21,867 bases of DNA from Plicaturopsis crispa FD-325 SS-3. Lineage: Eukaryota > Basidiomycota > Agaricomycetes > Amylocorticiales > Amylocorticiaceae. Shown piece by piece: positions 16,165 through 19,040 of the stretch. The stretch lies in assembly GCA_000827205.1 (NCBI GenBank), contig KN832560.1, forward strand, positions 541,957 to 563,823, in the 5' to 3' direction. The position numbers were made by a program, and so were the translations under genes. Within the stretch, counting starts at the first letter, position 1. Each line of letters opens with the position of its first letter. A model generated the notes under the pieces. The model searched no databases. It was not told the DNA's origin and saw nothing but the letters and a program-made list of their open reading frames with translations.

Positions 16165-16326
16165 ATTGCCAGTCCTCAGCGCAGTTCAGGCGGTAAATCT
16201 ATGAGATATCGTCAAGGATGGAGTGGTGAACGGCGGGAGAGCAGAGGAGGACATAGGAGCAGGAAACGCACGTTCGCGACCGTTTAGACTTGACGCGGCT
16301 GCTACATCGGGTCCCGATTGGGACGC
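16165..16326. promoter_or_regulatory. Proximal promoter of the metallophosphatase gene
   Basis: This is what remains between the start codon and the mobile-element insertion. It is part of the divergent promoter region shared with SHQ1. No specific site is recognised. Confidence 0.4.
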
Positions 16327-16335
16327 CTTGCCGAT
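16327..16335. repeat. Target-site duplication, left copy (CTTGCCGAT)
   Basis: These nine bases directly flank the left inverted repeat and are repeated exactly at 17092-17100 after the right inverted repeat. They mark the insertion site. Confidence 0.93.
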
Positions 16336-16584
16336 CAGGCTCCTACCCACCCGGCCTTGGGAGTTATGAGATATCTCGCAAAGTCGGCGTTGAGTCTTGC
16401 AGCCACCCTCAGCCACCGATCCACGTGCCAAGTTGAAACTCAGCAACTCTAATTCCACACATAACTCCCAAGGCCGGCTGGCACACAACGTCGGGTCCCA
16501 CGCCACAGCCCGTGAATGCACCGTAGCAAACGCGCGCCACAGCAACGCCACAGCGTCGCCACTCGTCGTTTTGGCCCTCGTACA
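16336..16584 (+). repeat. Left terminal inverted repeat (249 bp)
   Basis: It begins CAGGCTCCTACCCACC and is an exact reverse complement of 16843-17091. It carries one 18-bp internal motif in each orientation (16351-16368 and 16460-16477). Confidence 0.95.
16351..16477. repeat. 18-bp inverted motif pair inside the left arm
   Basis: CCGGCCTTGGGAGTTATG at 16351-16368 reappears as its exact reverse complement at 16460-16477. Because the arm is duplicated, the motif occurs four times in the element (also 16950-16967 and 17059-17076). Repeated subterminal motifs are often transposase-binding sites, but that role is inferred. Confidence 0.9.
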
Positions 16585-16764
16585 ATGTCTCAACGCCCCC
16601 TGTACTTACACATAACTGTCGGAATTGGTTCTCACCCCAAGGGCTCCTCTAAAATTGAGTTCCATAAAAAAAATCCATGCCCATGTGGCTACACTTTGTC
16701 CAGTAGCCTGGATCATGAGGCTGCCCGGGCTACATCTCTTCCCAAACACGTCAAAAAATCGTAG
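16585..16764 (+). CDS. Short open frame in the element centre (59 aa, unidentified)
   Basis: The ATG is the first codon after the left inverted repeat and the frame ends at TAG 16762-16764. The peptide starts MSQRPLYLHITVGIG, contains one CPCGY motif near residues 32-36, and ends in a basic tail (KHVKKS). It has no recognised domain. It may be a chance frame, a fragment of captured host sequence, or a remnant of a transposon protein. The open frame also continues upstream into the arm. Confidence 0.25.
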   Translation: MSQRPLYLHITVGIGSHPKGSSKIEFHKKNPCPCGYTLSSSLDHEAARATSLPKHVKKS

Positions 16765-16842
16765 TTACATTGTGTTTTGAAGGAGTACTGCAGGAATACA
16801 TAATCTATCATCTAATATGCTCAGAAAGCTGAGTGCAAGCGG

Positions 16843-17091
16843 TGTACGAGGGCCAAAACGACGAGTGGCGACGCTGTGGCGTTGCTGTGGCGCGCGTTTG
16901 CTACGGTGCATTCACGGGCTGTGGCGTGGGACCCGACGTTGTGTGCCAGCCGGCCTTGGGAGTTATGTGTGGAATTAGAGTTGCTGAGTTTCAACTTGGC
17001 ACGTGGATCGGTGGCTGAGGGTGGCTGCAAGACTCAACGCCGACTTTGCGAGATATCTCATAACTCCCAAGGCCGGGTGGGTAGGAGCCTG
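16843..17091 (-). repeat. Right terminal inverted repeat (249 bp)
   Basis: Exact reverse complement of the left arm, ending GGTGGGTAGGAGCCTG. Confidence 0.95.
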
Positions 17092-17100
17092 CTTGCCGAT
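17092..17100. repeat. Target-site duplication, right copy (CTTGCCGAT)
   Basis: Exact copy of 16327-16335. Removing the element and one copy would leave a continuous pre-insertion site. Confidence 0.93.
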
Positions 17101-17354: not shown

Positions 17355-19040
17355 ATGATTACACCGCGTTTCTCATGCACTCAAACAGCACAGTCAATAC
17401 TGGTGGCAATTTATTGCCCCGCCATCCGGGTATGTCCAGTCTCCCGAGATCCCCTTCAATGCGTGTATAAACCGACATTTCCCCCCGGAAAGTAGGCCTC
17501 CGAGGTGGAAATACACGTCGATGACACACTATTCACCCTGCATATAAATCCATACTTCCTACGATTAAATTTCTCCGGCTCGTTGCTGGAAGACGACCAG
17601 TCCTCTGCAAAATACGATGCAGAATCAGGATATCTCAACGTCACGCTGACCAAGGAGGTCCCCGGTCAGGAATTCAAAGATCTGGACCTTTTGGCAAAAT
17701 TACTTGCTCCCCGGCCGTCGGAAAATGCTCCCAAAGTGCCAATCATCGAGGTCGTCGGAGGTGACAACACGCCAGGCGTCGACGATGAACTCGCAGAAAG
17801 CGTACAGAGACTTTCTCTGGACCGCCGCGAAATTCTTGAAGGTATATATAGTCTGGTCAAAGATGTGATTTATGCTGATAAATTATCACTAACTTTAGCG
17901 GCTGAGAACGACTGGCAACTACCCCAGGAGGTACCTGAGCCGCTCGACACACTACATACCTCCGTGTCCAAACGGTACGGGTTCTTGGATATGCATTCGG
18001 GCTATTTTACGCATGTCGGCCACTCCGAAAACGAAGTCAACGAGCTCGGACCGGACGCAGAGACATGCCCTCTCGCAGAGCGCCGGAATAAACGGGTGAA
18101 ACACGAAGATTCGAAATGGGACGAGGAGCACTATATGTATGTTCGGCACATTGTCGCCGTGTGCTGATTCTGATGTCTCGCAGGGCTGATTATGCGGATG
18201 ATGAGTACATCCAGGAACTAATTGCATGGAGGCATCCGTATACGACCAATTTCGAATATACAGAGGAGGAAAAATTGGCCATGCTGCGTCTCCCCCGCAA
18301 AGAATGTTAGTTAGCTCTCCCATATTGCTCTCTGGTGCCCTTACGAATTTCCCCCATAGACCTTGCGTCCCCTTTGCAGACACACAACCTCTATCTCACG
18401 CTGCTGACACTGCTGTTCGCTTATGCATACGAGACGCGCACAACTCAAGGCGACCCGACGCCAGAAAGTGCATGGACACTTAGCACCCTTGTCCCCGCAT
18501 TCTCGGCATTAGACCCGCCGCCATACGCCCCGATAGCATCTTCACCACCAACCGTCTTCACATCCGCCTCCCTCGGCGCGACCCTTGTTCCCCCGTACCG
18601 CCGTTCTCTGGCGTTTCCCTTGTACCGCTCATTCGCGCTCGCAGAGGCTTGCCGATCGGACGTTGCGGATATATTGACGGGTGGACAAAGAATGGTTGTC
18701 CGCTGCCTTCTGGCAATGAAGAAAATACTGGACCACCACGAGGTGTACTACGTGTACAGTAAAGTATGGGTTGACGACTTTTGCGTGTGGGCGCAGACGT
18801 GTGCGAGGTACGCCCAATTCTTATGTGCTGAAGGCGCTATACACTTACACGTTCTGTGGCATGCGCAGTGATCAGGTATTGACACAATTAGGCGTCAGCC
18901 TTCGGTCGTCGAGAGTCGATAAATTTGCGCTGGGGTGGGATTTGGAGGCGCTTGAAGCTGCGACACGTGGGGTAGAGGACAGAGATAGTGACAGTGACGA
19001 CGAGTCCGACTCTGCAGACGATTCACCCGCCCCATTATGA
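17355..19040 (+). CDS. SHQ1: SHQ1, H/ACA snoRNP assembly chaperone
   Basis: SHQ1 binds the pseudouridine synthase Cbf5/dyskerin before RNA loading and is needed to make H/ACA snoRNPs and telomerase-related particles. Six exons (17355-17429, 17496-17841, 17899-18136, 18184-18305, 18360-18807, 18869-19040) join in frame to 466 residues. The N-terminal CS (Hsp20-like) domain begins MITPRFSCTQT, continues through IYCPAIR, VEIHVDDTLFTLHINPYFLRLNF, and ends near GYLNVTLTKE. The C-terminal SHQ1 domain shows AAENDWQLPQE, YGFLDMHSGYF, LYLTLLTLLFAYAYETRTTQGDPTPESAWT, LVPPYRRSLAFPLYRSFALAEA and YYVYSKVWVDDFCVWAQ. The acidic tail is DRDSDSDDESDSADD. Introns are 47-66 nt. Divergent from the metallophosphatase, with the foldback element in the shared upstream region. 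Confidence 0.94.

Follow-up and report, generated by a model that had tools for sequence, protein, structure and literature searches.

What moves the 756-bp inverted-repeat element that lies in the window analysed here, a stretch of 21,867 nucleotides of contig C7 (KN832560.1) in the 33.2-Mb, 49-contig assembly of Plicaturopsis crispa FD-325 SS-3? The element consists of two 249-nt arms (left, 16336-16584, forward strand; right, 16843-17091, reverse strand) which are 100% complementary and are spaced by a 258-nt centre (16585-16842). CTTGCCGAT is repeated exactly at both flanks (16327-16335 and 17092-17100), and among the repeat lengths of 2-14 that were tried, only 9 bp was exact. No open reading frame (ORF) of at least 100 aa lies inside the 756 bp, an ORF at 16186-16593 overlapping only the left arm and the first 9 bases of the centre; the element is therefore at most a non-autonomous dependant. 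A sequence-only reading of this locus had described the mismatch-free arms, the centre and the duplication correctly, and its view of a non-autonomous terminal-inverted-repeat DNA transposon is upheld; it had further assigned the element to the Mutator-like elements (MULEs) and its movement to a MULE transposase elsewhere in the genome. We consider it probable instead that the element is moved in trans by two-gene elements, carrying a DUF6589 gene and a RecQ-like helicase gene, that fit the AcademH lineage.

The evidence for this partner comes chiefly from C5:873045-879189, a 6,145-bp element whose termini, at C5:873045 and C5:879189, are inverted relative to each other. Between them lie matches to DUF6589 (C5:876353-877766) and to the RecQ-like helicase of C18 (C5:873758-874351; E 1.5e-20), and the 9-bp duplication outside them, GGTATTGCA, is exact. 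Over the first 20 bases this element agrees with the terminal 20 bp of the window element (16336-16355, forward strand, CAGGCTCCTACCCACCCGGC) at 16/20, but over the following 20 at just 7/20; thus the extreme terminus is shared, as expected of a transposase recognition end, which these 20 bp probably are. Because C5:873045-879189 was located by a terminus search, the likeness of its ends is not independent evidence; such evidence comes from the fact that the ends enclose both genes and are flanked by an exact repeat. One end of a DUF6589+RecQ element on C15, located independently of the window terminus, matches the C8 subfamily of the window family at 14/20 and the window at 13/20; the opposite end of that C15 element agrees with the window terminus at only 10/20, as do the TAGGTTCGG ends of further such elements.

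A larger candidate, C18:312843-320874 (8,032 bp), was at first taken for the autonomous member of the window family and later rejected, because its gene pair belongs to C18:313713-320727, an element with TAGGTTCGG ends and its own duplication, CAAGGCCTT, nested in the centre of the outer copy, which has CAGGCTCC ends. The left arm of this outer copy also holds a 726-bp element with ends TACACCCCCAGACC.../...GGTCTAGGGGTGTA (L034, 380-1105), an insert with which a TA duplication of Tc1/mariner type would fit.

DUF6589 and RecQ-like genes lie together across the genome. The 56 exon-level DUF6589 matches (2 of them below the family cut-off) fall into 28 clusters. A RecQ-like match is found no farther than 5 kb from 16 of these, in convergent orientation in 14 cases, divergent in 2 and tandem in 0; of the 23 helicase clusters, 16 likewise have a DUF6589 cluster at that distance or closer, whereas 2,000 random placements gave a mean of 0.27 and a maximum of 4. 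All RecQ-like matches derive from one query, the C18 helicase, so that more distant helicases may be missed; this query matches recQ_fam (TIGR00614) at E 2.2e-44 and 152 bits, below the curated cut-off of 219.8. Inverted ends and exact 9-bp duplications bound five of the six pairs examined: besides C5:873045-879189, with its window-like terminus, and C18:313713-320727, these are C14:633312-640499 (duplication GACTTTGTA) and C15:208001-215050 (CCATTTGCA), which share the short ends TAGRCTCG, and C1:197220-207348 (TAGGTTCGG ends, duplication CTGCCACGC). A scan around the sixth pair, C5:1723541, gave no bounding ends with a duplication. The C14 and C15 scans each returned one other weak pair with 8-bp repeats, one of which scored slightly higher; the chosen pairs are supported because their ends are identical in both copies.

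The TAGGTTCGG family is separate from that of the window and includes long and 709-bp copies (C1:197220-207348, C3:119347-126099, C3:966178-966886 and C10:712160-712868) with exact 9-bp duplications. In total 26 of its ends were found, and five of six tested elements have exact 9-bp duplications; an alternative partner end at C10 gave no exact duplication.

The gene pair extends beyond P. crispa. A DUF6589 protein search matched 338 proteins from many mushroom genomes, and among the matches listed, drawn from the best 120 of each protein search, neighbouring gene tags for both genes occur in Rhodofomes roseus (EVJ58_g3389/g3390), Coprinellus aureogranulatus (NMY22_g3064/g3065), Candolleomyces efflorescens (MD484_g5119/g5120), Panaeolus cyanescens (CVT24_010875/010876) and Marasmius tenuissimus (PM082_018334/018335).

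DUF6589 itself is predicted to be a DDE transposase built on an RNase-H-like fold, with three acidic residues at the expected places: in the model the first strand carries D247, the fourth strand is followed by D409, and E648 sits in a late helix; these are kept in 68/73, 67/73 and 73/73 alignment rows, respectively. In the search with the predicted fold, rows 1-31 of the 43 listed were DDE transposases or RAG1; Foldseek, though, gave no structural match at E <= 0.001. A PDB sequence search with the DUF6589 alignment returned a single, meaningless match (E 8), and a scan of viral contigs with that alignment gave 40 pattern matches and no relative.

The window element belongs to a family with the same terminus. 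The 30-bp terminus occurs at 16 genomic places at no more than 3 mismatches, against 0 for a reversed-pattern control, and further bounded copies likewise stand between exact 9-bp duplications of their own; the terminus is therefore not a chance likeness. Shorter patterns of the terminus brought up additional elements, C5:873045-879189 among them, but with much noise: one search gave 36 places where its reversed control gave 30, and another 49 where the control gave 21. Element and terminus searches together gave seven bounded copies, all seven with exact duplications and each duplication different: the window element, C5:525630-526455 (CATAATGCT), C8:795514-796505 (GCCCGCGCT), C3:543575-544329 (GGTTCAACG), C15:651659-651818 (GACATTAGT), C18:312843-320874 (GGTAAACGC) and C23:152171-152823 (CCGCGAGAC). 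The sequence-only reading had looked to such copies, with distinct duplications, for support; six further bounded copies exist. Kept outside the count were a partial C5 end (526920-527060), the orphan end C2:3535137 and short fragments such as C19:340615-340655. The partial C5 end was rejected as a separate copy, being a duplicate that adjoins a 370-bp N gap. By eye, the signal for a target-site consensus in the duplications was too weak.

Several copies show peculiarities of their own. The C15 copy (160 bp; L013, 2160-2319) is a single arm whose inner end is closed by terminal bases, and it retains the exact 9-bp duplication. The left arm of the C23 copy contains a nested 342-bp element, CAGGACCCCGGACAA...TTGTCCGGGGTCCTG (L010, 1682-2023), whose duplication is the 6-bp CTCCTA. 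Part of the centre of the C8 copy, at element positions 394-570, matches C3:2447357-2447535 at 87%, which is either captured host sequence or another repeat; sequence related to the centre of the window element was found in the C5 copy only.

Elements with CAGGCTCC ends are not confined to this family. A second family, marked by recurring CAGGCTCCTACCCATCCGTC, has exact 9-bp duplications in all four of its bounded copies (ATCGATATC, GTTCCGTCC, GCTCCTGGC and AGTATGAGC), its single ends at C2:2675828 and C5:671309 not being counted, and C25:91333-93146 is flanked by the duplication TTATCCCCG. Exact 9-bp duplications occur in all 13 tested bounded elements with CAGGCTCC ends. No partner end was recognised for the orphan ends C2:3535137, C2:2675828, C5:671309, C7:992856 and C5:666465. 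A weaker end-like motif, identically oriented at both places, occurs at C3:453354 and C3:454955 (examined over 91 bases at each).

The perfect arms had been taken as a mark of very recent movement. Arm agreement within copies is 249/249 in the window, 249/252 in C5, 258/258 in C8 and 247/248 in C3; between copies it is 244/249 for the window and C5, and 234/248 for C8 and C3, a difference of about 6% with gaps set apart. Because arms are near-identical within copies that differ by about 6%, the two arms of one copy appear to be renewed together, and their perfection gives no insertion date; renewal probably proceeds by conversion or by template switching through the hairpin. What survives of the claim of youth is the exact duplication, which fits a young insertion.

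Together these data suggest the following scheme, whose chemistry is taken from the predicted fold, while observation supplies the element's structure, its family copies, their duplications and the terminus common to the window element and a DUF6589+RecQ element. The transposase would be the DUF6589 protein of a DUF6589+RecQ element; it would bind the CAGGCTCC ends, recognising the terminal ~14-20 bp (CAGGCTCCTAMCCA...), cut out the window element and insert it at a target cut staggered by 9 bp, so that a 9-bp duplication results. The RecQ-like helicase may assist by opening or repairing the donor or the target, and homogenisation would keep the arms alike within each copy.

The alternative that survives best is compatible with this mechanism and concerns only classification: the DUF6589+RecQ elements would be real, 9-bp-duplicating transposons of a superfamily apart from Academ, and AcademH would show no more than a resemblance to them. 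The literature searched contains no mention of DUF6589, and the sole match to PF20231 was an unrelated physics paper, which counts in favour of a separate superfamily; on the other hand, a helicase together with 9-10-bp duplications in fungi is what reports of AcademH describe, and we regard separation from Academ as unlikely. In published accounts AcademH is given 9- or 10-bp duplications and a helicase, and AcademX a nuclease and duplications of 3 or 4 bp (PMC10045372); RecQ helicase is present in Academ (PMC3627910); in fungi, Academ copies contain DEAD and recQ_fam domains and frequently carry host-gene annotations (PMC6416283); and AcademH is found in Basidiomycota, Ascomycota and Mucoromycota, in few copies (PMC10799480). 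Putative non-autonomous MULE and Academ elements have both been reported as widespread in Marasmius oreades (PMC8290104). The DUF6589+RecQ elements fit AcademH by duplication length, helicase and host, with DUF6589 as the putative Academ transposase. A bolder version, in which the DUF6589 and RecQ-like partners form a non-Academ, undescribed mushroom superfamily whose dependants actively homogenise their mirror-image arms as part of movement, is more doubtful still.

It is also conceivable that the true partner is another transposase that escaped detection, either hidden in a gap of the assembly or no longer present in this strain, and that the likeness to the DUF6589+RecQ terminus reflects coincidence or capture. 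Two points weigh on that side and against the DUF6589+RecQ partner. Searches of this genome yielded no autonomous copy bearing the window's own arms, and orphan ends enter N gaps: the end at C5:671309 meets N after about 420 bases (gap from C5:671731 onward), and C2:3535137 (L035, 2638 onward) bears the 30-bp family terminus followed by unlike, TAGC-rich sequence until an assembly gap about 2.4 kb from its end (in C2 from 3537550), so that it is possibly one end of a larger partner element. Coincidence is nevertheless improbable, given that C5:873045-879189 has the terminus inverted at both ends, an exact 9-bp duplication and both genes inside, and that a C15 end found without the window terminus resembles the C8 subfamily end.

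The MULE assignment, in which the window element would be a TIR-MULE (terminal-inverted-repeat MULE, Mutator superfamily) moved by a MULE transposase of the same genome, fares worse, and we now think it very unlikely. Long terminal inverted repeats and 9-bp duplications are indeed MULE-typical, maize Mu having ~215-bp repeats and 9-bp duplications (PMC2774946). In P. crispa, transposase profiles recovered two PF10551 loci, one scoring above the family cut-off (C13:897127, 28.4 bits) and one short of it (C5:422915, 24.8 bits), and no match to PF00872. Both loci lie within their own elements, likewise flanked by 9-bp duplications (C13:894869-898799, TCAAGTACA; C5:421124-424476, TCCACCGAC), but the ends of these elements agree with the window terminus at only 4, 5, 5 and 8 of 20 positions, against 16/20 for the DUF6589+RecQ element whose gene pair that terminus brackets. 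CAGGCTCC, GGAGCCTG and the inner motif of the window arms (described below) were absent from the 10-11 kb examined at both PF10551 loci; no longer copy of the kind that the sequence-only reading had proposed to look for, with a MULE transposase between the same arms, was found. The broader expectation of that reading, dependence on a transposase encoded elsewhere, holds through the DUF6589+RecQ terminus match, but not for a MULE transposase. An assembly or palindrome artefact is scarcely credible: inverted repeats are hard to assemble, and the partial C5 end is a duplicate beside a 370-bp gap, but seven bounded copies stand in separate places with different exact duplications and the window contains no N.

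Within the window element, each arm contains a 22-nt inner inverted repeat, 95% complementary, whose second motif copy lies 91 bp further in. In the left arm the outer copy (16347-16368, forward strand) pairs with the inner, inverted copy (16460-16481, reverse strand); in the right arm the inner copy (16946-16967, forward strand) pairs with the outer (17059-17080, reverse strand). Because the motif recurs inverted within it, the arm is a loose palindrome in itself. Self-inverted arms were considered as a general mark of CAGGCTCC elements, which was not borne out; none occurs in the examined stretches of C25:91333 and C7:992856. The inverted pair measures 29 bp at the second-family end C5:671309 and 21 bp (76%) at the C5:873045 end. 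ORFs neighbouring the window element match P-type ATPase and SHQ1 domains, the closest SHQ1-matching ORF beginning at 17505, about 0.4 kb away.

The MULE guess is replaced here by a tested link to a two-gene transposon system. DUF6589, a Pfam family of unknown function, gains a concrete candidate role as a predicted DDE transposase, and perfect arms in such elements are no indicator of age.

Compared with known systems, DUF6589 shares 9% sequence identity with the structure of the hAT transposase Hermes, and no position between D409 and E648 has a C/DxxH motif in at least 5 of the 73 rows; hAT target duplications are 8 bp. Long inverted repeats and a 9-bp duplication liken the window element to TIR-MULE or Mutator foldback elements, but the MULE-type loci of this genome have other ends, and it is a DUF6589+RecQ element that has the matching terminus. 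KolobokH is likewise fungal and has a RecQ helicase alongside its transposase, the helicase lying downstream of the transposase domain, but Kolobok duplicates 4-bp TTAA (PMC9587614), whereas here the duplication is 9 bp (CTTGCCGAT) and the helicase is a separate, usually convergent gene. AcademH, as reported, shares the 9-bp duplications, the RecQ-type helicase partner and the fungal (Basidiomycota) host; the window element differs from it in encoding nothing and in having self-inverted 249-bp arms.
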